Positions 26,291-47,110 of a stretch of DNA of 64,000 bases are shown here, piece by piece. Under the pieces are notes generated by a model. It was not told the origin of the DNA and searched no databases. It saw only the letters and a list, made by a program, of their open reading frames with translations. Each line of letters opens with the position of its first letter. The first letter of the stretch is position 1. Location of the stretch: contig NZ_FQUV01000004.1 in the NCBI RefSeq assembly GCF_900129235.1, positions 248,001 through 312,000 of the forward strand, read 5' to 3'. The DNA comes from Litoreibacter ascidiaceicola. GTDB taxonomy: Bacteria > Pseudomonadota > Alphaproteobacteria > Rhodobacterales > Rhodobacteraceae. Both the position numbers and the translations under genes were made by a program.

Positions 26291-27379
26291 TTACTTTTGC
26301 TCAAATGGAGTCAGTTGGTCCCAGTCGAAGACCACTCCGGTCCCAGCGGTGTTCGGTGCCACCGCCATGTGGTCCTCGATCACAACCGGTCGAGTTGTGT
26401 AGCGCTCGATCGGGAACGAGTGCATCTCGATCCAGCCCGCATCGGGTTGGGCCGCCACAAGGCTCACATGTAGTTCCTGCATCCCGTGCGAGCAGGGGGA
26501 TATCCCGTGTTCGTGGCACAGTGCGGCCACTTGCAGCCATCCGGTGACCCCGCCGCAGTTCGACGCGTCAGGTTGCAGATAGGTCAACTTGGCATCGGCC
26601 ACCGCATATTCGAACTCGTGGATCGTATGAAGGTTCTCTCCCATCGCAAGGGGCATACCTGTCGCCTCCGCAATGCGACCAAAGCCTTTGTAATCATCGG
26701 GGATAGTCGGCTCTTCGAACCACATCAGATCGAACGGCTTGAACGCATTGGCCGCCTCGATCGCCTGATCGACGCTCATTGAATAATTGGCGTCCACCGC
26801 AAAAGCCACATCCGGCCCGATCATCTTCCGAACAGCCGCGATGCGTTCAATATCCTCGGCCAATGTCGGCTGCCCGATCTTGATCTTCACTCCGTTCAAC
26901 CCGCGGTCCAGAAACACCTGTAAACTGTCCAGCAGTTTGGGCAGCGCAAACCCCAGATCAATCCCGCCGCCATAGGCCCGGCATCTATCCGACGCGCCAC
27001 CGGCCATTTTCCACAATGGCTCGCCACGCGATTTGCCCCGCAAATCCCACAGCGCAATGTCCACCGCAGAAATGGCGAAAGAGGCGATCCCGCCCCGCGC
27101 CACGTAATGCACGTGCCACTGCATGGCGTCATACAACGCTTCAACGTCGCGCGCATCTTGGCCAACCAGAAACGGGGTCAGGTCGTCGCGGATCATCGCG
27201 GCAATCGCGGTGCCGCCTTTTCCGCCCGTGTAAGTATAGCCCGTCCCTTCGGAACCATCTTCCAGCCGCACCGTCGTGGTGATCAGTTGGAAAAAATGGT
27301 GATCGCCATGCTTGGCATCCACCAGCACCTCGTCCAGTGGAACATTAAATAGCCGCGTCTGAACCGAGGTGATTTTCAT
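26291..27379 (-). CDS. Mandelate racemase-type enolase-superfamily dehydratase
   Basis: 362 residues with a capping domain (1-130) and a TIM-barrel. All superfamily residues are visible: Lys165 and Lys167 (KIKIG), Asp196, Glu222 (FEEP) and Glu248 (GENL) as metal ligands, Asp271 and His298 (CSHGMQE) as the second base pair. This His/Asp and KxK layout fits the MR subgroup, mostly sugar-acid dehydratases or epimerases. Shorter than L-fuconate dehydratase (about 440). ATG 27379 overlaps the stop of the 2-hydroxyacid dehydrogenase gene as ATGA. It is last of the five-gene left arm (SDR, IlvD, FAH, 2-HADH, this gene). Probable substrate: an aldonic acid; exact identity unknown. Confidence 0.88.
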
Positions 27380-28332
27380 AGATGCGCGCATTCCGGAACA
27401 GGTGTCTTCATCGAGCCGTCGGCCTTCCATTGTAACAGGTTGTCCACCGTCAACGCGCCCATCGCCGCGCGCGTCTCATGCGTGGCGGAGCCTACATGCG
27501 GTAACAGCACCGTGCGATCTGACGCTTTCAACGCGTCAGGAATATGCGGCTCCCGCTCGAACACGTCCAAGCCAGCCAGACCCAGCTTGCCGCTGTCCAA
27601 GGCCGCAATCAAAGCGTCCTCGTCCACGACCGAGCCGCGCGAGACGTTGATCAACATGCCCTTTGGCCCCAGAGCTTCCAGCACATCTTTGTTCACGATC
27701 TTGCTGGTCGACGGCCCACCCGGCGTGATGCACACCAACACGTCGCAAGCTTTCGCCATCTCCACCAGATCGGCGTAATACTTATACGGCACGTCTTTCT
27801 TGGTCCGTGTGTGGTACACGATGGTCGGGTTGAACACCGACAAGCGGTCGGCAATCTCCTGCCCAATGCGGCCCAGCCCTAAAATCCCGATGGTCTTGCC
27901 ATCGGGCGAGTTCGACAACGGCGCGTTGCCCTTGGCCTCCCAATCCCCCGAGCGCGCCCACGCCTCGTCATGGCGGAAGTTGCGCAAACCTGCGAGCAGC
28001 AGCAGCAAGGTGGTATTCGCCACCTCGCCATTCAGCACGTTCGGCGTATGCGACACCTTGATGCCCCGCGCCACACAGGCATCCGTGTCCACCGCGTCAT
28101 AGCCGACGCCATAGCCGGACACTGCTTTCAGATTTGGCAACGCCGCCATAACCGCAGGCGGAACCCCGTCATGGCCGTTCGTCATCACCGCCTCAACCGA
28201 GGCACCATGTTCACTTGCCCACGCATCCATATCCGAAATCTCGGAGAACTCGTGGATGGTGAATTCCGGCGTCAGGCGCGACATCATCTTCTCCGTCGCA
28301 CCGCCAATTTTTAACAGGCCGGGGTTGCTCAT
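27376..28332 (-). CDS. NAD(P)-dependent D-2-hydroxyacid dehydrogenase
   Basis: 318 residues of the D-isomer 2-hydroxyacid dehydrogenase family. Rossmann motif [10 protein letters not shown] near residue 153; the basic residues after the second strand (HTRTKKD) favour NADP(H). Catalytic Arg in [10 protein letters not shown], Glu in EREP and His in [10 protein letters not shown] are intact. The members closest in motif are glyoxylate/hydroxypyruvate reductases. In this operon a plausible role is to interconvert the small hydroxyacid or ketoacid released by the FAH hydrolase (inference). It overlaps both neighbours by 4 bases. Confidence 0.9.
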
Positions 28333-29177
28333 GCGTCTTCGCCCACGGACTGGCGCTGCGTCCCAAGGCCTTCAATGGTCAACTCCATTACGTCACCTTT
28401 CTTGAGGTAAACCGGCTCCGGCTTGATCCCCATGCCCACACCCGGAGGAGTGCCGGTGGTGATCACATCGCCCGGATGCAGGGTCATCAGGCCAGACAAA
28501 TGCTCGATGATCTGCGCTACGGTAAAGATCATCGTATTGGTGTTACCGGTCTGCATGCGCTTGCCATTCACGTCCAAAGACATGGCAAGGTTCTGCACGT
28601 CGCCAACTTCGTCCTTGGTCACCAGCCACGGGCCGGTCGGCCCGAAGGTGTCGCAGGATTTGCCCTTGGTCCATTGGCCGGTCAGTTGTGTCTGGAAATG
28701 CCGCTCGGAGACGTCATTGATCACGCAATAGCCCGCCACATAGTCCAGCGCGTCGGCTTCGGAGACGTATTTGCATTCCTTGCCGATCACCACACCCAGC
28801 TCGACCTCCCAGTCGGTATGGGTCGACCCGCGCGGCATCATCACGTCGTCGTAAGGCCCCACAATGGCAGAATTGGCTTTGAAGAACAGGATTGGATGCT
28901 CGGGGATAGCTGCACCCGTTTCAGCCGCGTGATCCGAGTAGTTCAGGCCGATACACAGGAACTTGCCGATGTTCCCGACGCAAGGGCCAATACGCGGGTT
29001 GCCTTCTACAACAGGCAGGTGATCAACATTTAGTTCACTCAACGCATGCAGCACCGCGTCGCCCAAATGCGCGCCGTCAATGTCCTTCACATGCGCGCTC
29101 AAATCTCGCAGCACACCGTCTGCGTCAATCATCCCGGGCTTCTCTTCGCCCACATCTCCGTAGCGTACTAGTTTCAT
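28329..29177 (-). CDS. Fumarylacetoacetate hydrolase family protein
   Basis: 282 residues. The C-terminal FAH domain begins at KFLCIGLNYSDHAAE (residues 72-86). Metal ligands are Glu124 and Glu126 (DWEVELG) and Asp155 (INDVS), with the later TGTPPGVGMG turn. In L-fuconate and L-rhamnonate non-phosphorylative pathways a protein of this size and layout hydrolyses the 2,4-diketo-3-deoxy acid to pyruvate and a hydroxyacid. The neighbouring SDR with matching active-site residues supports that role here, though acylpyruvase or ureidoglycolate lyase activity in the same family is possible. It overlaps the 2-HADH start by 4 bases and follows the IlvD-type gene by 11. Confidence 0.88.
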   Translation of the reverse strand: MKLVRYGDVGEEKPGMIDADGVLRDLSAHVKDIDGAHLGDAVLHALSELNVDHLPVVEGNPRIGPCVGNIGKFLCIGLNYSDHAAETGAAIPEHPILFFKANSAIVGPYDDVMMPRGSTHTDWEVELGVVIGKECKYVSEADALDYVAGYCVINDVSERHFQTQLTGQWTKGKSCDTFGPTGPWLVTKDEVGDVQNLAMSLDVNGKRMQTGNTNTMIFTVAQIIEHLSGLMTLHPGDVITTGTPPGVGMGIKPEPVYLKKGDVMELTIEGLGTQRQSVGEDA

Positions 29178-29188
29178 CTTAAATCTCC

Positions 29189-30976
29189 CTAATGGTTGTC
29201 ACGCGGCATATATTTGCGCGCGATGTCTTGGTATTTGGTGGCACCCTCCAGCGTCATCCCTTCCGAGAACGGACGCACCATGGCGCGGAAAATCTCCTGC
29301 CACGGGGTCTGGCTGTCCGGCACCGCGATGGAGCCGTTCACCAGTTTCTCGGCGCGTGCTTTCAGCTCGGAATCGTCGACCAGCATGTCAGCGGTGCATT
29401 TGCGCAGGTCGATCCGAACACGGTCGCCGGTTTTCACCAAGGCCAAACCGCCACCATCCGCCGCCTCGGGCGATGCGTTCAGGATCGACGGCGACCCAGA
29501 TGTCCCCGATTGCCGCCCGTCGCCCACGCAGGGCAGGGCATGAATACCCTTTTTCAGCAGATAGGCCGGAGGCCGCATGTTCACGACCTCCGCACCGCCC
29601 GGATACCCTTTCGGCCCCGCGCCGCGCATGATCAGAATGCAATGCTCGTCAATTGCAAGGCTCTCGTCGTCGATCTTGTGGTGGAAATCCTCCGGCCCGT
29701 CGAACACAATCGCGCGGCCCTCGAAGGCGTCAGGGTCGTCGGGGTTTGACAGATACCGCGTGCGGAATTCCTCAGAAATCACGCTGGTCTTCATGATAGC
29801 TGAATCGAACAGGTTGCCTTTCAGGTTGATAAAGCCCGCATCTTTCAACATCGGCGCATCAATCGAGTAAATCACGTCGTCATTGCCCGTCAGAACCCCA
29901 TCGCAGTTCTCGGCCATGGTCTTGCCATTGGCAGTCACCGCGTCCGGATGTGGCAACAACCCCGCCTTCAGCAACTCACCGATCACCGCAGGCACGCCGC
30001 CCGCACGATGGTAATCCTCGCCCAGATACTTGCCCGCCGGTTGCAGGTTTACCAACAGCGGGACCTTGTGGCCGATGCCCTGCCAGTCGTCATTTGTTAG
30101 CTCGATGCCTAAGTGTTTTGCCACCCCGTTCAGATGGATCGGCGCGTTGGTCGACCCCCCAATGGCCGAGTTGATAACAATAGCGTTTTCAAAGGCTTCT
30201 CGGGTCATGATGTCAGATGGCCTTAAGTCCTCATGCACCATTTCCACAATCCGCTGACCGGTGTGGTAGCTGATCTGCCCGCGCTCGCGATAGGGCGCAG
30301 GGATCGCCGCCGCCCCCGGCAATTGCATCCCCAAGCCTTCTGCCAAGGAGTTCATCGTGGTGGCCGTGCCCATGGTGTTGCAATAGCCAACCGACGGCGT
30401 CGAGGACGCCACCAGATCCATAAACCCGTCATCGTCGATCTCGCCTGCCGCTTGCATCTCGCGGGCCTTCCACACGATCGTGCCGGAGCCGGTCCGCTCG
30501 CCATTAAACCAGCCGTTCAGCATCGGCCCCACGCTCAGGGCAACCGCCGGAATGTTCACCGTCGCCGCCGCCATCAAAAGCGCGGGCGTGGTCTTGTCGC
30601 AGCCGATATTCAGCACGACACCGTCGATCGGGTAGCCGAACAGCGTCTCCACCAAAGACAGATACGCCAGATTTCGGTCCAGCATTGCGGTGGGCCGCTT
30701 GCCGGTCTCCTGAATAGGATGCACGGGTATCTCGATCACAGTCCCGCCCGCCGCAATCACCCCGTCGCGAACCCGTTTGGTCAGCTCGATATGGTGCCGG
30801 TTGCACGGGCTCAAATCCGATCCGGTCTGCGCAATCCCGATAATCGGCTTGCCCGATTGCAGCTCCTCTCGGGTCAGCCCGTAATTCAGATACCGCTCCA
30901 GATAAAGTGCGGTCATTTCCTGGTTGTCAGGGTTGTTGAACCACTTCTGCGATCTTAGCTTTGACTTATCCGCCAT
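29189..30976 (-). CDS. IlvD/Edd family sugar-acid dehydratase
   Basis: 595 residues, the size of L-arabonate/D-xylonate-type dehydratases. The three Fe-S cysteines are Cys58 (SPCNRH), Cys126 (IGCDK) and Cys199 (GYCNTMG). Further conserved segments are [14 protein letters not shown] and the C-terminal [20 protein letters not shown] with the catalytic Ser. It removes water from an aldonic acid to give a 2-keto-3-deoxy acid. ATG 30976 is supported by GGGA seven bases upstream, against GTG 30982. It lies 84 bases after the SDR gene. It is a second dehydratase in an operon that also holds an enolase-superfamily one, so two epimeric substrates may converge. Confidence 0.9.
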
Positions 30977-31060
30977 CTTCACATCCCGTTAAGGTTAACG
31001 CGCGCCGCCAGAAGCAACACCCTTGTTTCCATTTGGTCACAAATACTCAAACTCCCGACC

Positions 31061-31810
31061 TCAGCCAGACCATCCGCCGTCAATGATATGCGGCTGACCT
31101 GTCGTGAACCCGCTCTCGTCGCTGGCCAGATACACGACCAGCGCTGCAATTTCGTCGGCAGTCGCGATCCGGCCCATCGGCTGACGCGCCACAAACTGCT
31201 TCTTGGCTTCTTCATAGCCGCCGACCTGCTTGCCCAACGCGTGCAGGCGCTCCTCCAAAGACGGGCTTTCCACCGTGCCGGGGCAAATGCAATTGCACCG
31301 GATGCCCTTGGTGATGTAGTCGACGGCCACCGACTTGGTCATCCCGATCACCGCCGCTTTTGTGGTGCCATAAATGAACCGGTTCGGGGCTCCGATGATC
31401 GAGGAGCAAGCGCTCGACATATTCACGATCGAGCCGCCACCGCGCTCCAGCATGCCCGGCAGCGCCGCCTGCATCATCCGCCACATCGACCGCACATTCA
31501 AATCGAACGCGAAGTCCCATTCCGCATCGGTGGCATCCAGTGCGGTGCCGTGATGCACGAACCCTGCGCAGTTGAATAATATGTCAGGATTTACCTTCGC
31601 CACACCGTCTTTCACCGAGTCCGCGTCCCGGACATCCAGCACGAAAGTCTCGATGTTTTCGTGGGCCAGACCGGCCAGCGCTTCGGCATTCACATCGGTG
31701 GCAAATACCTTCGCGCCCTCATTGGCCATGGCCAAAGCCGAGGCGCGACCGATACCCTGCGCAGCGGCCGTTATAATTGCCCGCTTTCCGATAAGTCTAA
31801 GTTTTGACAC
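31061..31810 (-). CDS. SDR oxidoreductase, 2-keto-3-deoxy-L-fuconate dehydrogenase-like
   Basis: 249 residues beginning VSKLRLIGKRAIITAAAQGIG with a GTG start at 31810 and GAAGGGA upstream; the frame to 31879 is rejected. NAD site: AAAQGIGRA, with Asp39 (ATDVN) favouring NAD. Catalytic Ser in MSSACSS, Tyr147 and Lys151 (YGTTK). Arg144 precedes the Tyr, as in the BDH2/2-keto-3-deoxy-L-fuconate dehydrogenase subgroup, which it resembles throughout. It would oxidise C4 of a 2-keto-3-deoxy acid, making the substrate of the FAH hydrolase two genes on. First gene of the left arm, divergent from the 31980 gene. Confidence 0.88.
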   Translation of the reverse strand: MSKLRLIGKRAIITAAAQGIGRASALAMANEGAKVFATDVNAEALAGLAHENIETFVLDVRDADSVKDGVAKVNPDILFNCAGFVHHGTALDATDAEWDFAFDLNVRSMWRMMQAALPGMLERGGGSIVNMSSACSSIIGAPNRFIYGTTKAAVIGMTKSVAVDYITKGIRCNCICPGTVESPSLEERLHALGKQVGGYEEAKKQFVARQPMGRIATADEIAALVVYLASDESGFTTGQPHIIDGGWSG

Positions 31811-31979: not shown

Positions 31980-32864
31980 ATGCAAGACCACAAAATCGCG
32001 CTACTTGGCACCGGACTGATGGGCGCTCCCATGGCGCGCAATATTGCAAAAGCGGGCTTCCCGCTGGCCGTCTGGAACCGCTCCCGCAGCAAGGCCGAAC
32101 CGCTCGCGGAGGCGGGGGCGACCGTGCACGATACGGTCACCGGTGCGGTGGCCGATGCGGATGTCGTCATCACCATGCTGTCGGACGGCATTGCGGTCGG
32201 CAGCCTCGTCACCGACGCCGCCGTCACCGGTGCCATGAAGCCGGGCGCGCTCTGGATCGACATGTCCTCCACCAAGCCCGAAGAGGCGCGCACGCAGGCC
32301 GCACATTTGGCCGGTCTTGGGTTCCAGCATCTTGACGCTCCCGTCTCAGGTGGCACCAAGGGCGCGGAGGCAGGCACGCTGGCGATCATGGCAGGCGGCG
32401 ATGCGGACGCCTTCGACCGCGCCACGCCAGTTCTGAAGGCCATGGGTCGCCCCGTCCATGTCGGCCCCACAGGGTCTGGCCAGCTCTCCAAGCTGGCCAA
32501 TCAGGCGATCGTGGCGGTCACCATCGCCGCCGTCGCCGAGGCGATGTTGCTCGTCCAAAGAGGTGGTGCTGATCCCGCCGCCGTGCGCGCCGCGCTCAAA
32601 GGCGGCTTCGCCGACAGCACCATTCTGCAACAGCATGGCGAGCGGATGACAGAAGGCAATTTCGTCCCCGGCGGCCTGTCCAAATTCCAGCTCAAGGATC
32701 TCGACAACCTGCTCAATGAAAGCGGCCAGTTGAGCCTGACACTGCCCACAGCCGAGATGACCCGCGACCGCTTCGCTGATTTCGTCGAGAACATGGACGG
32801 CGCGGACAAGGACCATTCCGGCCTCTACCTCGAGCTTCTCAAGCGCAACGGGGTGACAGCATGA
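31980..32864 (+). CDS. Beta-hydroxyacid dehydrogenase, LtnD/HIBADH-like
   Basis: 294 residues: Rossmann domain with GTGLMGAPMA (residues 10-19), Asn33-Arg34-Ser35 after strand 2 suggesting NADP, substrate motif DAPVSGGTKGAEAGTL (119-134) and catalytic Lys171 (KLANQ). The family oxidises 3-hydroxyacids such as 3-hydroxyisobutyrate, tartronate semialdehyde or L-threonate. It overlaps the denD gene by ATGA. L-threonate dehydrogenase is attractive because DenD acts on D-erythronate, but the kinase OtnK and decarboxylase OtnC of the known tetronate pathway are absent. The 169-base gap to the divergent SDR gene should hold both promoters; I could not identify an operator there. Confidence 0.87.
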   Translation: MQDHKIALLGTGLMGAPMARNIAKAGFPLAVWNRSRSKAEPLAEAGATVHDTVTGAVADADVVITMLSDGIAVGSLVTDAAVTGAMKPGALWIDMSSTKPEEARTQAAHLAGLGFQHLDAPVSGGTKGAEAGTLAIMAGGDADAFDRATPVLKAMGRPVHVGPTGSGQLSKLANQAIVAVTIAAVAEAMLLVQRGGADPAAVRAALKGGFADSTILQQHGERMTEGNFVPGGLSKFQLKDLDNLLNESGQLSLTLPTAEMTRDRFADFVENMDGADKDHSGLYLELLKRNGVTA

Positions 32865-33832
32865 GGGCCCTCATCCTTGGTGGCGGCGGCATGGTCGGCC
32901 AGAAACTGGCCCGTCACATCGCGGCAAACGGATTGAACGGCCAACCGGTCGACATCACTTTGCACGACATCGCGTTCCCATCGGACCCCGTCGCGGGGGC
33001 CGCACAGATCAAAGGCTCCATCGCCGATGCAGGCACGCCCGAAACCCTTGCCAAAACCAAGCCCGATGTGATCTTCCACCTTGCGTCCATCGTGTCGGGG
33101 GAGGCCGAGGCCGATTTCACCAAGGGCTGGGCTATCAACATGCACCCGACTTGGGAGTTGCTCGAAGCGCTGCGAGCGGAGCATGAGGCGGACCCAAGCT
33201 ACCGCCCCCGCATCGTCTTCACCTCGTCCATCGCAGTGTTTGGCGGGCCGTATCCCGACAAGATCAGCGACGATTTCCTGTCCGCACCGCAAACCAGCTA
33301 TGGCGCGCAAAAGTCGATCTGCGAGACCATGATCTCCGACTTTTCCCGCAAGGGCTTCATCGACGGCATATCCATCCGCCTTCCCACCATCTGCGTGCGC
33401 CCCGGTAAACCCAACGCCGCCGCGTCGTCGTTTTTCTCGGGCATTATCCGCGAGCCGCTGAACGGGCAGGAGGCCATTCTGCCCGTGGCCGACACCACGC
33501 GCCACTGGCACGCCAGCCCGCGCTCCGCCACGGGGTTCCTGACCCATGCCGCAACGCTGGACACCGATCTGCTACAAAATCGCCGCGCCCTGAACCTGCC
33601 GGGTGTCAGCTGCACCGTGGCCGAACAAATCGAGGCGCTGCGCGATCTGGCGGGCAACGACGTGGTGAAGCTGATCAAGCCACAGCCCGATCCGGTGATC
33701 CAGAAGATCGTCGAAGGCTGGCCGCGCAATTTCGCACCCGAGCGCGCCCTTGCGTTAGGCTTCAAGGCGGAAAGCAGCTTCAAGGAGATCATTCAGGTCT
33801 ATCTCGATGACGACCTGAAACGACCAATCTAG
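32861..33832 (+). CDS. denD: D-erythronate dehydrogenase-like epimerase family protein
   Basis: 323 residues of the extended SDR (epimerase/dehydratase) family. GGGGMVGQKLA (7-17) binds NAD. TSSIAVFGGPYPDKISDD (121-138) with the catalytic Ser, and Tyr147 and Lys151 (YGAQK) complete the active site. The VFGGPYPD signature and overall length fit DenD, which oxidises D-erythronate to 2-oxo-tetronate. The partner genes of the published pathway (kinase, isomerase, decarboxylase) are not found nearby, so it may serve another C4-C6 acid here. It is coupled to the 31980 gene by ATGA and convergent with the GntR gene (12 bases between). Confidence 0.85.
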   Translation: MRALILGGGGMVGQKLARHIAANGLNGQPVDITLHDIAFPSDPVAGAAQIKGSIADAGTPETLAKTKPDVIFHLASIVSGEAEADFTKGWAINMHPTWELLEALRAEHEADPSYRPRIVFTSSIAVFGGPYPDKISDDFLSAPQTSYGAQKSICETMISDFSRKGFIDGISIRLPTICVRPGKPNAAASSFFSGIIREPLNGQEAILPVADTTRHWHASPRSATGFLTHAATLDTDLLQNRRALNLPGVSCTVAEQIEALRDLAGNDVVKLIKPQPDPVIQKIVEGWPRNFAPERALALGFKAESSFKEIIQVYLDDDLKRPI

Positions 33833-33844
33833 GCACGGTCAGCC

Positions 33845-34592: not shown

Positions 34593-34623
34593 AATTTTGA
34601 AATTGCAATAAAATTTCAAAATT
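34593..34623. promoter_or_regulatory. Inverted repeat, candidate GntR operator
   Basis: AATTTTGAAATT (34593-34604) and AATTTCAAAATT (34612-34623) are perfect 12-base inverted repeats separated by GCAATAA. The repeat is in the 251-base divergent gap between the GntR gene (start 34504) and dctP (start 34756). A -10-like TAGAAT (34634-34639) follows it toward dctP, so a bound repressor would cover the -35 region. The AT-rich composition contrasts with the surrounding GC-rich sequence. Confidence 0.7.
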
Positions 34624-35781: not shown

Positions 35782-35795
35782 GACCAAAACCTTGG

Positions 35796-35822
35796 GGGAG
35801 GTCGCGCGCGCCGCGACCTCCC
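35796..35822 (+). terminator. Hairpin between dctP and dctQ
   Basis: GGGAGGTCGCG and CGCGACCTCCC form a perfect 11-bp stem with a CGCGC loop, 15 bases after the dctP stop. Only a weak T stretch follows (CATTTTGG), so it likely causes partial termination or protects the dctP message from 3' decay. That would yield more binding protein than membrane subunits, a common layout in binding-protein operons. Confidence 0.65.
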
Positions 35823-35927
35823 TCACATTTTGGCCTGACGTTTGATCATTACAATCAAAGTCTCCAATCCACGTCAGTCCAACGGCGTGGCAAGGAGGTC
35901 CGTTTCCAAAAACGATAGGGGGGACAG

Positions 35928-39408: not shown

Positions 39409-40911
39409 ATGAAAGATACCATTCGCCTAGACGCAGACGACAATGTCGTCACCGCCACCCGTGCCTTGGAAGCGGGGGTGTCCGTCGAGGACGTCACCAC
39501 CACCGGCCTGATCCCGTCGGGCCACAAGATCGCGACACGGCCCATCAGGGCCGGGGAGCAGATCCGCAAATACGCGCAGATGATCGGGGTGGCTTCGACC
39601 GATATCGCGGCGGGCGATCATGTTCACACCCACAATTGCGACTTCGTGCCAACCGCGCAGAATTACGAGTTCGGCACCGACATGCGCCCTGTCATGCCCG
39701 CGACGGGCGACACCTTCATGGGCTACCGCCGCGACAATGGCTCCGTGGGCACGCGCAACTACATCGCCATCGTCACCTCGGTAAACTGCTCCGCCACCGC
39801 CGCGCGGCGCATCTCTGATTACTTCACGCCCGAGCGCTTGAAAGACTACCCCAATGTCGACGGCGTCTGCGCCTTCGTGCACGGCACCGGCTGCGGCATG
39901 GCAGGCGACGGCGACGGGTTCGAGGCTTTGCAGCGCGTCATGTGGGGCTACGCCCGCCACCCGAACCACGCAGGGGTTTTGATGGTCGGCCTGGGCTGCG
40001 AGATGAACCAGATCGACTGGCTGCTGGACGCCTATGGGCTGAAGCAAAATGACACGTTTCAGGTGATGAACATTCAAGGTGTGGCGGGTCTGCAAAAGAC
40101 CATTGAGCTGGGCATCAAGAAGGTCGAGGCGATGCTGCCCATTGCCAATCAGGCGACGCGCAGCGAGTGTCCTGTGTCGGAATTGAAGGTCGCGCTGCAA
40201 TGCGGTGGCTCTGACGCTTGGTCGGGTGTCACCGCCAATCCCGCGCTGGGCTACGCCTGCGACCTGCTCGCGGCCCAAGGCGGTACGGGCGTGCTGGCGG
40301 AAACGCCGGAAATCTACGGGGCCGAACACCTGCTCACCCGCCGCGCGATGTCGCCCGAGGTGGGCCAAAAACTCATCGCCCTGATCGAGTGGTGGAAGGA
40401 CTACACCGAGCGCAACAAAGGCTCCATGGACAACAACCCAAGCCCCGGCAACAAGAAAGGCGGGCTGACCACGATCCTTGAGAAGTCGCTGGGGGCTGCG
40501 GCCAAGGGCGGCACCTCACCGCTGACGGGCGTCTATAAATACGCGGAGCCGGTAACCGCCAAAGGCTTCACTTTCATGGACAGCCCCGGCTACGATCCAG
40601 CCTCCGTCACGGGGCAGATCGCAGGCGGCTGTCAGGTGGTGGTGTTCACCACAGGGCGCGGCTCGGCCTTCGGTTCGAAGCCCAGCCCGACCATCAAAGT
40701 CTCCACCAACACCGAGATGTATAAACGCATGACCGACGATATGGACGTGAACGCAGGCGACATGCTGACCGCTGGCGTGTCGTTGGAGGAGAAGGGCCGC
40801 GAGATATACGAGCTGATCTTGAGGGTGGCCTCTGGCGAAGTGTCCAAATCCGAGGCGCAGGGCTTGGGCGACTTCGAGTTCGTCCCATGGCAGATCGGCG
40901 CGGTGATGTAG
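39409..40911 (+). CDS. UxaA/GarD family altronate-type dehydratase
   Basis: 500 residues: an N-terminal SAF domain (residues about 1-95, GHKIATRPIRAGEQIRKYAQ) and a long UxaA catalytic domain with GYRRDNGSVGTRNYIAIV, HGTGCGM, LGCEMNQ, LQCGGSDAWSGVTANPALGYACDLL (in pieces), and FTTGRGSAFGSKPSPTIKVSTN near the end. Members dehydrate D-altronate or D-galactarate to 2-keto-3-deoxy acids using Fe(II). ATG 39409 is preferred to the frame start at 39301, which lies inside the PhyH gene. It is the third, unrelated dehydratase type in the island. Hexonate versus hexarate specificity cannot be told by eye. Confidence 0.9.
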   Translation: MKDTIRLDADDNVVTATRALEAGVSVEDVTTTGLIPSGHKIATRPIRAGEQIRKYAQMIGVASTDIAAGDHVHTHNCDFVPTAQNYEFGTDMRPVMPATGDTFMGYRRDNGSVGTRNYIAIVTSVNCSATAARRISDYFTPERLKDYPNVDGVCAFVHGTGCGMAGDGDGFEALQRVMWGYARHPNHAGVLMVGLGCEMNQIDWLLDAYGLKQNDTFQVMNIQGVAGLQKTIELGIKKVEAMLPIANQATRSECPVSELKVALQCGGSDAWSGVTANPALGYACDLLAAQGGTGVLAETPEIYGAEHLLTRRAMSPEVGQKLIALIEWWKDYTERNKGSMDNNPSPGNKKGGLTTILEKSLGAAAKGGTSPLTGVYKYAEPVTAKGFTFMDSPGYDPASVTGQIAGGCQVVVFTTGRGSAFGSKPSPTIKVSTNTEMYKRMTDDMDVNAGDMLTAGVSLEEKGREIYELILRVASGEVSKSEAQGLGDFEFVPWQIGAVM

Positions 40912-41897
40912 TGCGGCTGCTGGTTGCGGGCATAGGTCTGATCGGCGCGCGGCATCTGGCGCATGCGCTGGAGATGCCGCAGGTCGACGTGGTCGGCGTC
41001 ATCGACCCGCAACTGACGCAAGACCATGTGCCGCATTTCGACAGCATCGACGCGGTGGATGTGGAGGCCGATGCTATCGTGATCGCCACGCCCTCGCATC
41101 TACACGCGGACCACGCCGAGGCTGCTGCGGCGCGGGGGTGGCATATGCTCATCGAAAAACCTGTGGCCCATTCGCTGGACGCCGCCGACCGGATCATTGC
41201 AGCAGCCGAGCGGGCAGGGGTACAGACGCTTGTGGGCCATCACCGCCGCCACCACGCGGCGGTGGCAAAGCTGAAAGAGATGCAGGACGATGGCGCTATC
41301 GGGACGCCAGTTCTGGCGTCGATGATCTGGGCGCTGAAAAAGCCCGATCCATATTTCGACGTTCCGTGGAGGGCAGGGCCGGACGGCTCGCCCGTGCTGA
41401 TAAATCTGGTGCATGAGGTCGACCTGCTGCGGCACTTGTTCGGCGAGGTCGCTTCCGTGCATGGCATCGGTTCCAACGCGCAACGCGGGGCGGCGCGGGT
41501 GGAAAGCGGTACGGCGCTTCTGGGGTTTGACGGCGGATTGGCGGCGAGCATCAGTTTCGCCGACACCACGGCATCGCCCTACAGCTTCGAGGCGGGGACG
41601 GGGGAGAACCCGAATATCGCGACCACGGGCGAGGATTACCTGCGTATTTGCGGCACCGAAGGGGCTGTCGCTTTCCCGTCGCTGACTGTCTGGTCGGGGG
41701 CGGCGGACTGGTCGCAGGAGCCTCAACGCGCGGAGCATGGCGTCGCGCCCAATGTACCGCTGGTGGCGCAGCTGGAGCATTTCGCGCAGGTTTGCGCAGG
41801 TAAAGCAGCGCCGTTGGTCTCGGCTTTGGAAGGGCGAAAAACCTTGGAGACGACGTTGAGAATAGAGGCGGCGGTGGCCCCGGGCACGGGCGGCTGA
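40911..41897 (+). CDS. Gfo/Idh/MocA family oxidoreductase (first)
   Basis: 328 residues. NAD(P)-binding GIGLIGARHLA at the N-terminus, the EKPVAHSLDAADRII segment with the conserved Lys near residue 85, and VHEVDLLRHLFGE supplying the catalytic-type His and Asp. Members oxidise sugars, inositols or amino sugars, or act as imino reductases. GTG 40911 overlaps the uxaA stop (TAGTG); an in-frame ATG at 40887 would add eight residues, and neither has a strong ribosome binding site, so the start is uncertain. It is embedded in the TRAP operon. Confidence 0.86.
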   Translation: MRLLVAGIGLIGARHLAHALEMPQVDVVGVIDPQLTQDHVPHFDSIDAVDVEADAIVIATPSHLHADHAEAAAARGWHMLIEKPVAHSLDAADRIIAAAERAGVQTLVGHHRRHHAAVAKLKEMQDDGAIGTPVLASMIWALKKPDPYFDVPWRAGPDGSPVLINLVHEVDLLRHLFGEVASVHGIGSNAQRGAARVESGTALLGFDGGLAASISFADTTASPYSFEAGTGENPNIATTGEDYLRICGTEGAVAFPSLTVWSGAADWSQEPQRAEHGVAPNVPLVAQLEHFAQVCAGKAAPLVSALEGRKTLETTLRIEAAVAPGTGG

Positions 41898-41962
41898 CCT
41901 CGCCTGCGGCCTCGGCCCACCCACCCGCGCGATCCCGTTATGGGCGCAAAACCGGAGGACAG

Positions 41963-42853
41963 ATGAGTATGGAAACACTGACGCAATCCCAGAAGGACTT
42001 CTATGACGAGAACGGCTACCTCGTGCTGGAGAAGCGCATCCCTGACAGCATCCTAGCCAGCCTGCGCGCCGAAATCGCCAAGTATCAGGAACAGGCCAAA
42101 AGCCTGTCTGAGAGCACCGACCAGATTGATCTGGAGGACAGCCACACGCCGGAAACCCCGCGCGTGCGGCGTATCAAGCTGCCGCATACCCATAACAAGG
42201 TGATGCGCGATTTGATGTATTCCGACCTGATACTTGCCCCCGCCCGCGACTTGATCGGGCCGGACCTGCGGCTGCACACGACCAAGTTGAACATGAAATC
42301 GGCAGGCTTCGGCGCGGCGGTGGAATGGCATCAGGACTTCGCATTTTATCCGCACACCAATGACGACGTGCTGGCGATCGCGGTGATCCTCGACGACATG
42401 GAAAGCGAAAACGGCCCGCTGATGGTCTTCCCCGGCTCGCACAAACACCCGATCTATGACCACCATGTCGATGGGGTGTTTGCAGGTGCCATGGACCTTG
42501 CCGCCAGCGGCTTCGACATGAAGGACGCGGTGGAGTTGAAGGGGCCAGCCGGCTCGGTGTCGATCCATCACGGGCGGATCGTGCATGGCTCGGCGCTCAA
42601 CCAGTCGACCCGCGACCGCCGCCTGCTGTTTTATGAAATGATGGCAGCGGATGCGTTCCCGATCATGGGCTCGCTAACCCGCTGGAGCGACATCAAGGAC
42701 TACAACGACCGCATGCTGTGCGGAGATCCGACACTGGAGCCGCGGGTGCAAAGCATCGGCGCGCGTATCCCCGCGCCACTGCCGACGGACAACTTCACGA
42801 TTTACGAAATCCAGAAGCGCCTTCACGCGCGGTCTTTCGAGGTGGCCAAGTGA
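41963..42853 (+). CDS. Phytanoyl-CoA dioxygenase family protein (second)
   Basis: 296 residues with an intact Fe(II)/2-oxoglutarate centre: His123 and Asp125 (EWHQDFAFYPHTNDD), His208 (HHGRIVHGS) and arginines 217-220 for 2-oxoglutarate. The EWHQDFAFYPHTN form resembles PhyH relatives acting on small hydrophilic molecules rather than on phytanoyl-CoA. It is quite different from the 38468 protein outside the triad. ATG 41963 follows GGAGG. It overlaps the next gene start as GTGA, so it is tightly coupled to the DAO-type flavoprotein. That pairing hints at sequential oxidations of one substrate (inference). Confidence 0.89.
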   Translation: MSMETLTQSQKDFYDENGYLVLEKRIPDSILASLRAEIAKYQEQAKSLSESTDQIDLEDSHTPETPRVRRIKLPHTHNKVMRDLMYSDLILAPARDLIGPDLRLHTTKLNMKSAGFGAAVEWHQDFAFYPHTNDDVLAIAVILDDMESENGPLMVFPGSHKHPIYDHHVDGVFAGAMDLAASGFDMKDAVELKGPAGSVSIHHGRIVHGSALNQSTRDRRLLFYEMMAADAFPIMGSLTRWSDIKDYNDRMLCGDPTLEPRVQSIGARIPAPLPTDNFTIYEIQKRLHARSFEVAK

Positions 42854-43959
42854 GCATTGCCGTCATCGGTCGGGGGCTTTGGGGTGCGGCGGCGGCGCGG
42901 CATCTGGCGATGGCGGGGGAGGACGTGACGTTGATCGGCCCGCCCGAGCCACACGACAAGCGAAGCCACGCAGGCGTGTTCGGCTCGCATTATGACGAGG
43001 GGCGGATCACCCGCAAAAATGCGCTGGATGAATACTGGGTCGGAGTCTCGACGACGGCCATCGACCGGTATTCCGAGATCGAACGCCAAAGCGGCATCCG
43101 CTTTTACACTGAAACCGGCGCGGTGATGGCGGGGGGCGAAGGCTTCATGGCCCGCGTCGATGTGGGCCGCCTGAAGCACAATGTTCCATGTGATGTGCTG
43201 GACCACCAAGAGCTGGCGCAACGGTTCCCGTTCTTCCGCTTTCCCGCCCACTTCACCGGCTATCATGAACCCACCCGCGCGGGCCATGTCAGTCCGCGCA
43301 ATCTGGTCGCGGCCCAGACCAAGGCGGCGCAAACTTTCAACGCCAAGCTGGTGGAGGAAACCGTCACGGGGCTGGACGAGCGCGGCGACCATGTGGAGGT
43401 GACCACCGATCAGGGCCGCCACCGTTTCGACCACGTTCTGGTCGCCGCTGGCTACAACACCGATACGGTTCTGGCGCGCCCGCCAAAGCTGGACGTCTAT
43501 GCGCGCACAGTCGCGTTCTTTGAGGTGAGCGAGGCGGAGGCCGCGCGGCTGAGCGCGATGCCGACGCTCGTCTATGACACGCCGGAGGACCCGTATCTCC
43601 TGCCGCCGATCCGCTACCCGGACGGGAAGCTCTACATCAAACTGGGGGGCGATCCGGAAGATGTGCCCTTGGTCACAGAGACAAATATCCGCGACTGGTT
43701 CCAAGCGGGCGGCAACGCGCAGGTTCGCGATCACCTGCACGCGATGATCCGGACCCTGATGCCGGAGCTTGACATACTAGCTGTAAGCATGGAGGCCTGC
43801 GTGACCTCTTGGACGCAGGACCGGCTGCCGGAGATCGCGCGACTGTCCGACCGCCTTGTGGTTTGCACAGGCGGCAACGGGGCAGGGGCCAAATGCAGCG
43901 ACGAGATTGGCCGCCAAGGGGCGGCGCTGATATTAAATGAAACTGGAGTGAACAGATGA
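42850..43959 (+). CDS. DAO-type FAD-dependent oxidoreductase
   Basis: 369 residues. GRGLWGAAAARHLA (residues 7-20) is the FAD Rossmann loop, and the layout (YTETGAVMAGG, GYHEPTRAGHVSPRNLV, VAAGYNTDTVL, and the late VVCTGGNGAGAKCSDEIG) fits the MTOX/sarcosine-oxidase-like branch. These enzymes oxidise secondary amines or hydroxy acids, with covalent FAD at a Cys in the late GGNGAGAKC region in several members; Cys is present at that position here. GTG 42850 overlaps the PhyH stop. It is followed by the 43956 gene with an ATGA overlap. Substrate unknown. Confidence 0.85.
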   Translation: MSIAVIGRGLWGAAAARHLAMAGEDVTLIGPPEPHDKRSHAGVFGSHYDEGRITRKNALDEYWVGVSTTAIDRYSEIERQSGIRFYTETGAVMAGGEGFMARVDVGRLKHNVPCDVLDHQELAQRFPFFRFPAHFTGYHEPTRAGHVSPRNLVAAQTKAAQTFNAKLVEETVTGLDERGDHVEVTTDQGRHRFDHVLVAAGYNTDTVLARPPKLDVYARTVAFFEVSEAEAARLSAMPTLVYDTPEDPYLLPPIRYPDGKLYIKLGGDPEDVPLVTETNIRDWFQAGGNAQVRDHLHAMIRTLMPELDILAVSMEACVTSWTQDRLPEIARLSDRLVVCTGGNGAGAKCSDEIGRQGAALILNETGVNR

Positions 43960-44837
43960 GCAAAATCGGATTTATCGGCCTTGGCCTGATGGGCGGCGCA
44001 ATGGTGGGGCGGTTGCAGGACAAGGGCCACGATCTGGTGGTTTTGGGCAACCGCGACCGCACCTATCTGGATCAGGCACTCGCACGCGGCGCGACTGAGG
44101 CCGCAAACGCGCGGGAGGTGGCGGAAGCCTGTGACATCGTGATGCTGTGCATGGGCACATCAGATCAGGTCGAAGGCCGGATGCACGGCGACGCCGGTGT
44201 GATCGCAGGTCTGAAACCCGGCACGGTCGTGCTTGATTTCGGCACCTCGCTGCCCGCCTCGACCAAAGCCTTGGGCGAGGAGGTCGCGGCCGCAGGTGGT
44301 GCCTATCTGGACGCGCCATTGGGCCGCACGCCATCCCACGCCAAGGACGGTTTGCTCAATATCATGTGCGCAGGCGACAAGGCGGCGTTCGACAAGGTCA
44401 AACCTGTGCTGGACGATCTGGGCGAAAATGTCTTCCATCTGGGCGCGCTTGGCTCCGGCCACACGATCAAGCTGATCAACAACTTCTTCGGCATGACCGT
44501 GGCCAATGCCATGGCCGAGGCGTTCGCGATGGCAGACGTGCAAGGCGTCGATCGCAAGGGGCTTTATGACGTGATGAGCGCAGGCCCGCTGCATTCCGGC
44601 ATGATGGATTTCGTCAAGGGCTACGGGGTCGATGGTGACCCGAACCAGCTGGCCTTCGCGATCAAGAACGCCGCCAAGGATGTGGGGTATTACGCCAAGA
44701 TGGCGGATGACGCAGGGGTGGATTCGATCATGTCGAAAAGTACCCTGAAAGCCTTGGAAACCGCCCGCGACGAGGGTCACGGCGAGGACATGGTGTCCCA
44801 GATGGTGGACTTCTATGCCGCCAAGATGAAGCCGTAA
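43956..44837 (+). CDS. NAD(P)-dependent beta-hydroxyacid dehydrogenase, variant motif
   Basis: 293 residues with GLGLMGGAMVGRL (8-20), Asn32-Arg33 pointing to NADP, and the catalytic Lys172 (IKLINN). The usual DxxGG substrate motif (DAPVSGG) is replaced by DAPLGRTPSHAKDGLLN (119-135), so its substrate pocket differs from the 31980 enzyme and from HIBADH or tartronate semialdehyde reductase. It may act on a bulkier or differently charged hydroxyacid. It is coupled by ATGA to the DAO gene and followed 3 bases later by the DMT permease. Confidence 0.87.
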   Translation: MSKIGFIGLGLMGGAMVGRLQDKGHDLVVLGNRDRTYLDQALARGATEAANAREVAEACDIVMLCMGTSDQVEGRMHGDAGVIAGLKPGTVVLDFGTSLPASTKALGEEVAAAGGAYLDAPLGRTPSHAKDGLLNIMCAGDKAAFDKVKPVLDDLGENVFHLGALGSGHTIKLINNFFGMTVANAMAEAFAMADVQGVDRKGLYDVMSAGPLHSGMMDFVKGYGVDGDPNQLAFAIKNAAKDVGYYAKMADDAGVDSIMSKSTLKALETARDEGHGEDMVSQMVDFYAAKMKP

Positions 44838-44840
44838 AAC

Positions 44841-45755
44841 ATGAGCCGCGTCGCCGTTCCAGCACTGGAAGATCGCGCAACCCTTGGCATCGGAATGATG
44901 CTGGCGGCGTGGCTGTTTTTCTCGATGATCGACACCTCGGTGAAGTGGCTGGTGCTGGCGGGGTTACCGGCGTTGCAGCTGGCCTTCATGCGCTATGTCG
45001 GGCATTTCGTCATCTCCACATGGCTGGTGGCGCGCGGCGGCATGGACGTCGAGCGCTTCAAGACCGACCGTCTGGGGCTGGTGTTGTTCCGCGCCTATCT
45101 GCTGACCTCGTCGACCGCGTTGAACTTCATCGCGCTGATCTACCTGCCGCTGACGGTGACCGCGTCGATCATGTTCACCTCGCCCATTTTGGTGTGCCTT
45201 CTGGGCTGGCCCTTGCTGGGCGAACGCGCGGGGCCATGGCGCATCTTCGGCATCCTTCTGGGCTTTGTCGGCGTGCTGGTGGTGATGCGGCCCTTCGGGA
45301 CAGAGTTCCATTGGGCCATGCTCTTGTCGCTCAACAACGCGCTGGCAATGGCGCTTTATTCGATCCTGACGCGCAAGTTGTCCGGGGTGGTGTCGACCGA
45401 AATCATGCAGTTCTATATGGGGCTGTTCGGCACGGTGGTTTTGCTGCCCACGGCGATCTGGACATGGACCAACCCCACGACGACACTGGATTGGGTGCTG
45501 CTGGTCCTGCTGGGGGTCTTCGGCTGGGCAGGTCACGAGCTTCTGACCCGCGCCCACCGCTTCGCCACGGCGAACACGTTGATGCCTTATGCGTATTTCT
45601 TCCTGCTGTTCCTGTCGATTTCCAGCTACCTGATCTGGGGCCATATCCCCGATGCCGCGACGCTGATCGGGGCGGCGATCATCATCGGCTCCGGCCTGTT
45701 GATCTGGGTGCGCACGCGCAAGCGCGCGGTGCTGCGCACGCCGCCCGGCGTGTAG
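44841..45755 (+). CDS. DMT superfamily (EamA) permease
   Basis: 304 residues with ten predicted membrane helices in two EamA repeats (about 15-140 and 160-290). The start LEDRATLGIGMMLAAWLFFS and the first repeat end SPILVCLLGWPLLGERAGPWR are typical. It would export or import a small metabolite. As last gene of the dctP-to-DMT run it could expel a toxic or surplus intermediate of the pathway (inference). No ribosome binding site stands out, because it begins 3 bases after the previous stop. Confidence 0.9.
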   Translation: MSRVAVPALEDRATLGIGMMLAAWLFFSMIDTSVKWLVLAGLPALQLAFMRYVGHFVISTWLVARGGMDVERFKTDRLGLVLFRAYLLTSSTALNFIALIYLPLTVTASIMFTSPILVCLLGWPLLGERAGPWRIFGILLGFVGVLVVMRPFGTEFHWAMLLSLNNALAMALYSILTRKLSGVVSTEIMQFYMGLFGTVVLLPTAIWTWTNPTTTLDWVLLVLLGVFGWAGHELLTRAHRFATANTLMPYAYFFLLFLSISSYLIWGHIPDAATLIGAAIIIGSGLLIWVRTRKRAVLRTPPGV

Positions 45756-45897
45756 CACCGCACGCTTGGTTAACGCAGTCTCAACGGGAGGGGCGTAGAA
45801 CATCTCTCGACGTCACAAGAGTGGTTAATCAGGATCCCGCCAGCCGGCCGCGACCAGCATGGGCAGCGGGGCATCCGATCAAATCGCGCGATACAAA

Positions 45898-45943
45898 TCC
45901 GGCAAAAAGCCGGACGGGATGCGGGGGTAAAACCCTGTCCGGC
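45898..45943 (+). other. Mutually exclusive hairpins in 338-base gap
   Basis: The gap 45756-46093 holds no gene I can support. TCCGGC (45898-45903) pairs with GCCGGA (45909-45914) around AAAAA. The same GCCGGAC (45909-45915) can instead pair with GTCCGGC (45937-45943), extended by GGG/CCC with one bulge. The two structures cannot coexist, which resembles a small attenuator or RNA switch, but no U-run follows. It could equally be the 3' end of the permease transcript. On either strand I see no known riboswitch consensus. Confidence 0.4.
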
Positions 45944-46093
45944 AGCACACCACGCTTCGGCGGCGCCGCCACCCTTACTACTTCCGAATAGAGCATTTTT
46001 GCCCACCCTCGATGGTTTCATACCAGCTCGGGGGCTTGTGGCGTTGACCCGTCCCACGGTTTGGCGCACGGTCCACCCGACTGGGAGGATCAC

Positions 46094-47110
46094 ATGAAGA
46101 ACGCCGTATTGTTCGGGGTGGGCATGGTGTCGGACACACATCGTCTGGCGCTGGAGGCGTCCTCGCACGCACGCTTGGCCGCTGTCTGCGCCCGCAGATC
46201 GGAGCGCGCCGCTGCCTTTGCCGAAACGCATGGATTGCGGGCGGTCACGCTGGCCGAAGCCTGCGCCGATCCCGACCTTGATTTCGCCATTGTCGCCACA
46301 CCGCCCAATGCCCGCACGGAGATCGTCGCGGCACTGGTGCAGGCGGGCAAGCCCATCTTGATGGAAAAGCCTGTCGAGCGCGGCCTGACCGCCGCGACCG
46401 CCCTTGTGGAGCGTTGCGAAGCAGCGGGTGTGCCGCTTGGCATCGTCTTTCAACACCGGATGCGGGAGGCGTCACAAAAGCTGACCCAGCTCATGGCGGA
46501 GGGCGCGCTTGGTCCGTTGGCGATGGCCCAGATCGACGTGCCTTGGTGGCGTGATCAGGACTATTACAGCACTCCCGGTCGCGGCACGATTGCGCAAGAT
46601 GGCGGCGGAGTGCTGATCACGCAGGCGATCCATACGCTTGATCTGGCGCTGTCGCTTACCGGCCCCGTGTCGCAGGTGCAGGCACTGGCGCGCACGACCA
46701 AGTTGCACAAGATGGAGGCCGAAGACGTCGTGGCCGCAGGGCTCGACTTTGCGAACGGCGCAGTGGGCACACTGACCGCCACCACGGCGGCGTTCCCGGG
46801 GACGGCGGAAAGCATCACGCTCCATTGCGCCGATGCCTCCGCGCGTTTGCAATCGGGGGAGCTGCATATTCACTGGCAGGATGGCCGCCATGAGACGTTC
46901 GGCGAAAACACCGAGACCGGCGGCGGGGCCGACCCGATGGCCTTCACCCATGCGTGGCATCAAGGCGTGCTTGATGACTTCGTGCAAGCCTTGGACGCGG
47001 GCCGCCCGCCCCTTGTGACAGGCCGCGCGGCGCTGAAAACACATGCGCTGATTGAGGCGCTGATGGATTCCTCGCTGGAAGGCAAACGCATGAAGGTCCG
47101 GAACGTCTAG
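46094..47110 (+). CDS. Gfo/Idh/MocA family oxidoreductase (second)
   Basis: 338 residues. The N-terminal nucleotide loop is GVGMVSDTHRLAL, the conserved MEKPVERGL segment is near residue 95, and the C-terminal dehydrogenase domain contains GVLITQAIHTLDLALSLTG with the His-x-x-x-Asp pair. It is divergent from the 40911 enzyme in sequence (GVGMV in place of GIGLIG). ATG 46094 follows GGGAGG, while the frame start at 46061 is leader. It lies 338 bases after the DMT gene, probably as a separate transcript of the same island. A sugar or inositol-like substrate is likely for the family. Confidence 0.88.
   Translation: MKNAVLFGVGMVSDTHRLALEASSHARLAAVCARRSERAAAFAETHGLRAVTLAEACADPDLDFAIVATPPNARTEIVAALVQAGKPILMEKPVERGLTAATALVERCEAAGVPLGIVFQHRMREASQKLTQLMAEGALGPLAMAQIDVPWWRDQDYYSTPGRGTIAQDGGGVLITQAIHTLDLALSLTGPVSQVQALARTTKLHKMEAEDVVAAGLDFANGAVGTLTATTAAFPGTAESITLHCADASARLQSGELHIHWQDGRHETFGENTETGGGADPMAFTHAWHQGVLDDFVQALDAGRPPLVTGRAALKTHALIEALMDSSLEGKRMKVRNV

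Follow-up and report, generated by a model that had tools for sequence, protein, structure and literature searches.

The stretch analyzed here, a window of 64,000 nucleotides from a Litoreibacter-like genome (Litoreibacter ascidiaceicola, contig NZ_FQUV01000004.1, positions 248,001 to 312,000), contains at 26291–47110 an island of 19 genes, which is a real, conserved sugar-acid locus. The island is more than a chance assembly, as its gene set and arrangement are met again across dozens of further genera. On the minus strand the left arm comprises, in order of position, 3,6-anhydro-L-galactonate cycloisomerase (ACI), a D-2-hydroxyacid dehydrogenase (2-HADH), a fumarylacetoacetate hydrolase-family protein (FAH), an IlvD/Edd dehydratase and a short-chain dehydrogenase/reductase (SDR). 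These are followed by GarR1 and DenD on the plus strand, by a GntR regulator on the minus strand and then by the plus-strand right arm: DctP, DctQ, DctM, PhyH1, UxaA, Gfo1, PhyH2, DAO, HIBADH2, EamA and Gfo2. The left arm most likely hydrolyzes 2-keto-3-deoxy-L-galactonate (L-KDGal) to pyruvate and L-glycerate. A sugar-acid locus fed by a tripartite ATP-independent periplasmic (TRAP) transporter, with this hydrolytic split as its core, is the best explanation of the island, and we consider it somewhat probable.

The sequence itself establishes the protein families, their catalytic residues, the linkage in operons and the two alternative settings of ACI described below; the reactions, the way the flux runs, what TRAP binds and what the PhyH proteins do are all inferred. 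In the proposed scheme, a sugar acid would be imported by the TRAP transporter. ACI, IlvD and UxaA, representing unrelated dehydratase families, could converge on (4S)-2-keto-3-deoxy acids, chiefly L-KDGal: ACI would produce it from 3,6-anhydro-L-galactonate, and IlvD and UxaA could possibly form it from L-galactonate or similar aldonates. The SDR would then oxidize C4 of the 2-keto-3-deoxy acid, and the 2,4-diketo acid would be hydrolyzed by FAH to pyruvate and, as the hydroxy acid, L-glycerate; other substrates would give other hydroxy acids. Glycerate/hydroxypyruvate could be handled by 2-HADH, GarR1 and DenD. Modified acids are probably turned into dehydratable ones by the variable PhyH, Gfo/Idh and DAO gene products.

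ACI (26291–27379, minus strand) is the most informative gene of the island. It had been taken for an MR-type dehydratase in an earlier reading of the sequence alone (the sequence-only reading); the family (enolase superfamily, MR group) is correct, but the protein is not a generic dehydratase, since its 63% identity (225 of 358 residues) to VejACI (PDB 5xd7) makes it an ACI orthologue. Seven of the eight published pocket residues of SCO3480 are kept; the eighth, Glu307, could not be mapped, as it does not fall on a Glu even in PDB 2ovl, the chain taken as SCO3480. That chain is probably SCO3480 judging by its length, its 41% identity to VejACI and the gene start given by a primer in PMC9706016. 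SCO3480 converts 3,6-anhydro-L-galactonate into KDGal and is 42% identical to the Vibrio enzyme, according to the same source.

Of 295 genomes from the family, 56 have an ACI orthologue (E ≤ 1e-110), the host included. When neighborhoods are defined as the same strand within 6 kb, with fixed thresholds, the other 55 loci fall into 22 with zinc-dependent alcohol dehydrogenase (Zn-ADH) and/or KduD-like genes only, 18 with genes of the FAH/2-HADH/IlvD type only, one with both and 14 with neither, some of the last on short contigs. The two settings avoid each other (Fisher p = 4.4e-5, kinship ignored), as if the same product could be processed in either of two ways. The sole locus of both kinds (L220) has 2-HADH and Zn-ADH/KduD-like genes without FAH. 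A representative KduD-like SDR scores 327.7 bits against a cut-off of 338.85. The Zn-ADH/KduD pair would perform redox steps of the P. atlantica type. The full order SDR-IlvD-FAH-2-HADH-ACI is found in 15 loci, in one of which (L226) 1460 bp lie ahead of ACI, and by coordinates ACI lies within 16 kb of UxaA in 19 other genomes.

The SDR (31061–31810, minus strand) belongs to the group of 2-keto-3-deoxy-L-fuconate (L-KDF) 4-dehydrogenases (L-KDFDH) and is 57% identical (144 of 253 residues) to the Herbaspirillum huttiense enzyme, PDB 8y11. In alignment with this chain it keeps the equivalents of R148, R192, R214 and W252, the residue numbers being those of PMC11199699 fitted to the chain by counting. 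The kcat/Km values given there for the H. huttiense enzyme are 7900 per min per mM for L-KDF, 1480 for L-KDGal, 641 for 2-keto-3-deoxy-D-pentonate (D-KDP) and 75 for 2-keto-3-deoxy-D-gluconate (D-KDGlu). FAH (28329–29177, minus strand), a predicted 2,4-diketo-3-deoxy sugar acid hydrolase, has L-2,4-diketo-3-deoxyrhamnonate hydrolase as its closest match both in NCBIfam (NF053535, 441.7 bits, cut-off 500) and in the PDB (8gsr, 343.6 bits), and its HxxE catalytic motif is present as HAAE. By sequence, the two proteins are similar to the 4-dehydrogenase and hydrolase that act as a pair in L-fucose Route III.

Enzymes that could act on the products are encoded alongside. 2-HADH (27376–28332, minus strand; PF02826/PF00389) is glyoxylate/hydroxypyruvate reductase-like, its top NCBIfam models being glyoxylate and hydroxypyruvate reductases, below cut-off. 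GarR1 (31980–32864, plus strand) is a 2-hydroxy-3-oxopropionate reductase-like dehydrogenase with 241.9 bits to TIGR01505 (cut-off 340.75) and 40% identity to E. coli GarR. DenD (32861–33832, plus strand) belongs to the D-erythronate dehydrogenase family, with 360.8 bits to NF043036, over the cut-off of 325.

Besides ACI, two dehydratases could supply the split. IlvD (29189–30982, minus strand), an IlvD/Edd sugar-acid dehydratase, scores 1021 bits to NF009560 (cut-off 684), and its nearest PDB chain is 7m3k, named galactonate dehydratase. UxaA (39409–40911, plus strand; PF20629/PF04295/PF08666) is a putative sugar-acid dehydratase of the UxaA/GarD superfamily, and four Cys, a putative iron site, are found in 93 of 93 aligned rows of this protein. 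For a UxaA-superfamily dehydratase of H. huttiense the relative activities given in PMC6336799 are 100% with D-arabinonate, 12% with D-altronate, 5.6% with L-fuconate and 2.4% with L-galactonate. These substrates all share one C2–C4 configuration, so UxaA and ACI plausibly feed the same type of acid.

UxaA was used as an anchor in the 295 Rhodobacteraceae genomes, nearly one per genus, and has a match at E ≤ 1e-100 in 152 of them. The matches form two groups, clade A with about 61–85% identity and clade B with at most 60%. From the matches listed, 79 clade-A loci were fetched and, as a control, 21 clade-B loci out of a longer list. The tree, built from 68 of the 79 clade-A loci, the window, a Thalassococcus plasmid, the 21 clade-B loci and two E. 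coli proteins with very long branches, places the island protein in clade A and parts the clades with modest support (81). Linkage rates were taken from windows longer than 19 kb (67 of 79 in clade A, 18 of 21 in clade B) with gene-wise identity thresholds set by the authors, 50% and 60% for the PhyH genes. DctM, marking the TRAP transporter, is present in 48 of the 67 full clade-A windows and in none of the 18 full clade-B windows. Among these 48 TRAP-UxaA windows the SDR occurs in 36, FAH in 26 (always with the SDR), IlvD in 27, HIBADH2 in 39, EamA in 42 and Gfo1 in 36. Of the full clade-B windows, seven have the SDR and seven FAH. Eight of the 21 clade-B loci also hold a gene family whose single representative tested is best matched by L-fucono-1,5-lactonase (222 bits, cut-off 400). 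The control group thus looks, at least in part, like the described L-fucose type.

An annotated copy of the core lies on plasmid pS3C of Thalassococcus sp. S3. Its left part reads 2-HADH-FAH-IlvD-SDR, an NAD(P)-dependent oxidoreductase in the place of GarR1, and GntR; the right part reads TRAP, UxaA, a shikimate dehydrogenase-like gene, a second such oxidoreductase in the place of HIBADH2 and a drug/metabolite transporter (DMT). A mannitol dehydrogenase, UxaC, three Gfo/Idh genes and UxuA are also present. No DAO is seen, and searches of the plasmid collection with the PhyH1 and PhyH2 proteins gave no match in the pS3C record. It follows that the core forms a genuine unit, one that a plasmid can carry, and that PhyH is optional. 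This copy (L085, 8758–29555) makes up almost half of the 45.8 kb plasmid. In 15 of the 67 full clade-A windows a shikimate dehydrogenase-like gene (for example L008, 9186–10004) stands between Gfo1 and PhyH2; it is missing in this window.

Import of a sugar acid by TRAP, and a dehydratase step followed by SDR/FAH cleavage to pyruvate and a hydroxy acid, had been proposed in the sequence-only reading, and both proposals gain support; the two arms also recur together. The TRAP-UxaA core is conserved across Rhodobacteraceae, with the PhyH genes absent from 20 of the 48 windows and DAO present in three. The idea of a single pathway, which was to fail if the arms occurred apart, mostly survives on the rates given above, but five loci (L094, L095, L108, L125 and L132) hold left-arm genes and UxaA with no TRAP nearby.

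Several observations weigh against the hydrolytic L-KDGal split as the core of the locus. ACI (at least 60% identity) is found in only 4 of the 48 TRAP-UxaA windows; these extend about 9 kb from UxaA, and 19 other genomes have ACI within 16 kb of it, as noted above, but most TRAP-bearing loci may use UxaA or IlvD alone. Of the 55 ACI loci, 14 are in neither setting. With human DHRS6/BDH2 (PDB 2ag5) the SDR scores 287.3 bits, little less than with L-KDFDH (296.6 bits), and DHRS6/BDH2 is given as a cis-4-hydroxyproline dehydrogenase in PMC11199699. Close to C6 the SDR has the same Trp that contacts the methyl group of L-KDF, and this residue thus shows no preference for L-KDGal. In the host no obvious origin of 3,6-anhydro-L-galactonate is seen: by Pfam, in a search confined to the island, its 19 genes include no aldehyde dehydrogenase family, to which the 3,6-anhydro-L-galactose dehydrogenase belongs, and the agarase/porphyranase domain of glycoside hydrolase family 16 (GH16, PF00722), the one agarase family searched for, has no match in the host genome, while the control search finds it in 6 of 14. 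It is more probable, therefore, that the acid is taken up ready-made or formed elsewhere. The genes UxaC, UxuA, mannitol dehydrogenase and KdgK-like in the loci of relatives point to hexuronates as well. A candidate operator palindrome, AATTTTGAAATT-N7-AATTTCAAAATT (34593–34623, no strand assigned), is the sole such site in the window, with none expected in shuffled sequence; it was not found at the left-arm SDR/GarR1 promoter, and in relatives a half-site occurs in 4 of 25 SDR-GarR1/DenD gaps. Related half-sites are found in 30 of 84 DctP-divergent intergenic regions, a set that counts some loci twice, against 20 of 841 others.

The operator was sought as a shared element of both arms; its absence from the SDR/GarR1 gap weighs against a single regulon and agrees with two pathways in one stretch, in which the right arm (TRAP, PhyH, UxaA, Gfo/Idh) would serve one substrate and the left arm another, the two co-occurring through a common niche. 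The five clade-A loci named above, with FAH, 2-HADH, DenD and UxaA, fit such an arrangement, as do the existence of a second ACI operon type and the position of the palindrome, within the window only upstream of DctP. Association tests over 52 TRAP-UxaA loci, short windows included, point the same way: PhyH1 has no significant association with FAH, SDR or IlvD, nor with any other gene at 0.05 (the nearest is PhyH2, p = 0.051), and PhyH2 is positively associated with GarR1, KdgK, Gfo2 and GfoB and negatively with FAH (p = 0.008). These tests are confounded by windows that end about 9 kb from UxaA. Yet SDR and FAH occur together in 26 of the 48 TRAP-UxaA windows, and many loci of the L130–L160 group have the SDR gene within the right arm, flanked by HIBADH2 and EamA. 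Moreover, a locus from another family (L248) groups ACI, SDR and FAH at a distance of about 2.5 kb from the series TRAP-PhyH1-Gfo1-HIBADH2-EamA; UxaA was not found in its 19.9 kb. Two separate pathways appear rather unlikely.

The hexuronate genes raise another alternative, namely that the island serves a common route for D-galacturonate/D-glucuronate. D-Altronate would be formed by UxaC with a reductase of the UxaB/UxuB type, UxaA would convert it to 2-keto-3-deoxy-D-gluconate (D-KDG), and SDR/FAH would replace KdgK/Eda. Apart from the UxaC, mannitol dehydrogenase-family, UxuA and PfkB/KdgK-like genes in related loci, the host genome has elsewhere UxaC with an adjoining 39% homologue of the mannitol dehydrogenase-family gene of the relatives. 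The island UxaA is the only match to itself in the host at E ≤ 1e-100, and L-KDFDH is somewhat active on D-KDGlu (PMC11199699). Against this, the same enzyme is about 20-fold less efficient with D-KDGlu than with L-KDGal, clade-B loci hold fuconolactonase-like and SDR/FAH genes, and no role would be left for ACI and IlvD. The UxaA of the island shares 35% identity with its E. coli namesake and 39% with GarD, compared with 54–60% with the fetched clade-B proteins. Judged by identity it is not of the E. coli altronate type, though it may act on D-altronate. Owing to the distance of UxaA and the ACI operon, a generic altronate pathway was set aside as the whole answer and is kept as an unlikely rival. 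The host UxaC and mannitol dehydrogenase-like reductase genes adjoin each other (L088, 9695–12371) in surroundings that by eye resemble polysaccharide biosynthesis genes.

The PhyH, DAO and Gfo/Idh genes are the variable part of the locus. PhyH1 (38468–39397) and PhyH2 (41963–42853), both on the plus strand and of family PF05721, are putative Fe(II)/2-oxoglutarate oxygenases. In alignments of 46 proteins, H145-x-D147, H228 and R239 of PhyH1 (model with a mean predicted local confidence, pLDDT, of 89.2) and H123-x-D125 and H208 of PhyH2 are invariant. Both keep the HxD...H iron residues and are therefore probably active oxygenases, not remnants. Their substrates were sought by fold: PhyH1 is near ThoJ, SnoN, SnoK and PHYHD1 (query TM-scores of about 0.5–0.6), PhyH2 is near GriE, trans-Pro hydroxylase H11, PHYHD1 and EctD, and none of these settles a substrate. 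Likewise, for the TRAP ligand the nearest PDB chains of DctP, 4pe3 followed by the lactate- and ketoacid-named chains 2zzv and 7ug8 ('ketoacid-binding protein'), fix no sugar acid. PhyH1 occurs at E ≤ 1e-60 in 2 of 288 other genomes of a class-wide draw, few of them from this family. Among the best 80 of 211 relatives of PhyH2, the nearest are from Litoreibacter species (93–96% identity). Orthologues of PhyH2 (66–70%) without other island genes were seen in five loci (L031, L065, L070, L034 and L041) of Roseibium/Labrenzia/Ruegeria; they weaken the case for a strictly pathway-bound PhyH2, which may have its own role. In the TRAP-UxaA windows PhyH1 is present in 27 and PhyH2 in 10 of 48, with 20 lacking both.

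An amino-acid/betaine pathway could also be considered, in which PhyH2 hydroxylates a free amino acid, DAO oxidizes it and the BDH2-like SDR oxidizes a hydroxyproline-like product. The leucine, proline and ectoine hydroxylases among the fold neighbors of PhyH2, the 4 bp overlap by which DAO directly follows it and the resemblance of the SDR to BDH2 would be in line with this. FAH, IlvD, UxaA and ACI find no place in such a pathway, DAO is as rare as stated, and the Thalassococcus copy keeps the core with neither PhyH nor DAO, which leaves it very improbable. The 'trimming' of the substrate by PhyH, DAO and Gfo/Idh enzymes, suggested in the sequence-only reading, finds no support in genes so variable, with PhyH missing from 20 of 48 windows and from pS3C.

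The hydrolytic L-KDGal branch could be extended to a two-stage route of marine Rhodobacteraceae. The TRAP transporter would collect dissolved modified (anhydro-, O-alkylated or otherwise blocked) sugar acids, the two PhyH and the Gfo/Idh proteins would unblock them, and the convergent dehydratases would supply L-KDGal-type acids, which the 4-dehydrogenase and the hydrolase would split into pyruvate and glycerate with no kinase involved. This whole route is offered tentatively, as a possibility; its oxygenase stage goes furthest and has the least support, and the hydrolytic branch is the best-supported new claim. If that branch is correct, ACI-bearing Rhodobacteraceae comprise two biochemical types distinguishable by operon, and the orphan TRAP-PhyH locus of many marine genera gains a testable substrate class, as does a part of the dissolved sugar-acid pool possibly used by these bacteria.

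The estimate of about 19 genes and all the families named earlier were confirmed by Pfam on all 19 genes and by NCBIfam on 17 of them, with starts trimmed. The division into two arms around GntR (33845–34504, minus strand; GntR/FCD type, PF00392 and PF07729) is right as to families, but the list omitted GarR1 and DenD; these sit between SDR and GntR, so the regulator is not a simple divider. Tight coupling applies to 11 of the 15 same-strand neighbor pairs, which overlap or lie at most 11 bp apart, but not to the remaining four, with gaps of 78, 146, 65 and 338 bp. The last sets off Gfo2 (46094–47110, plus strand; PF01408/PF22725), the weakest and most loosely attached member, with a homologue in 15 of the 48 TRAP-UxaA windows. 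The other plus-strand genes are DctP, the TRAP solute-binding protein (34756–35781; PF03480), the small permease DctQ (35928–36833; PF04290) and the large permease DctM (36833–38458; PF06808), Gfo1 (40911–41897; Gfo/Idh/MocA oxidoreductase, PF01408), a DAO-family FAD oxidoreductase (42850–43959; PF01266), the HIBADH-family dehydrogenase HIBADH2 (43956–44837; PF03446/PF14833) and an EamA/DMT-family transporter (44841–45755; PF00892). A strong G+C-rich hairpin (35793–35825, plus strand) between dctP and dctQ possibly sets the ratio of binding protein to permease. Directly left of the island lies a UshA/5'-nucleotidase-family gene (23966–25540); on its other side are a sulfide:quinone reductase-like flavoprotein (47512–48828; 187 bits to NF049943, cut-off 525) and, near it, a TehA/TDT-family transporter gene (49361–50383).

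Among known systems, the D-erythronate/threonate (otn/den) pathway shares the DenD family with the island. OtnK (DUF1537), OtnC and OtnI, which we take to be members of the tetronate pathway, have no family representative by Pfam among the 19 genes, in a search confined to the island. The E. coli hexuronate pathway (UxaCBA/UxuAB/KdgK) has related genes in the loci of relatives and, in the host, UxaC and the mannitol dehydrogenase-like gene outside the island; it differs from the island in the distance of the island UxaA, in the island's SDR/FAH and in having a kinase. No kinase or aldolase family is found by Pfam among the island genes, just as the sequence-only reading had stated for sugar kinase and KDG aldolase.

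Route III of L-fucose and pentoses (H. huttiense, Xanthomonas; PMC6336799, PMC11199699) shares the SDR 4-dehydrogenase and the FAH hydrolase. The H. huttiense UxaA-superfamily dehydratase is clustered there with the SDR, as in the part of clade B with the SDR. The island has the L-KDFDH-group SDR with its three Arg, FAH with HxxE and, in the same locus, the dehydratases IlvD, UxaA and ACI. It differs from Route III by TRAP genes instead of ABC-type ones, by the addition of ACI, PhyH, Gfo/Idh and HIBADH genes and by the lack, among the 19 genes in Pfam, of the L-fucose dehydrogenase and lactonase (aldo-keto reductase and amidohydrolase families). With SDR, FAH and UxaA as relatives of the Route III module, much of the gene set is already described. 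Neither ACI with SDR/FAH hydrolysis nor TRAP with PhyH and UxaA is described in the titles and abstracts listed from the open-access PMC literature.

The 3,6-anhydro-L-galactose pathway (Vibrio sp. EJY3, Streptomyces coelicolor, P. atlantica T6c; PMC9706016, PMC5943477 and PMC11219438) shares the ACI orthologue and its product L-KDGal. According to PMC5943477, P. atlantica converts L-KDGal to 2-keto-3-deoxy-6-phosphogluconate (KDPG) in three steps, and the Paraglaciecola hydrolytica homologues bear the names KDGal 5-dehydrogenase, 2,5-diketo acid dehydrogenase and KDG kinase. Aldolase and kinase-plus-aldolase fates of KDGal are listed in a review (PMC11219438). The other ACI operon type, with Zn-ADH and/or KduD-like genes in 23 of the 55 other ACI loci, would fit the redox steps of P. 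atlantica. In the island no Zn-ADH or kinase family, as for KDGal 5-dehydrogenase/KduD or the kinase, is found by Pfam, and 4-dehydrogenase/hydrolase genes stand in place of the later steps. This pair beside ACI, where the printed routes use aldolase, kinase or redox steps, is probably the new element, through which the L-KDGal of red-algal anhydrogalactose would gain a further fate, hydrolysis, beside the published aldolase, kinase and redox (via KDG) routes.

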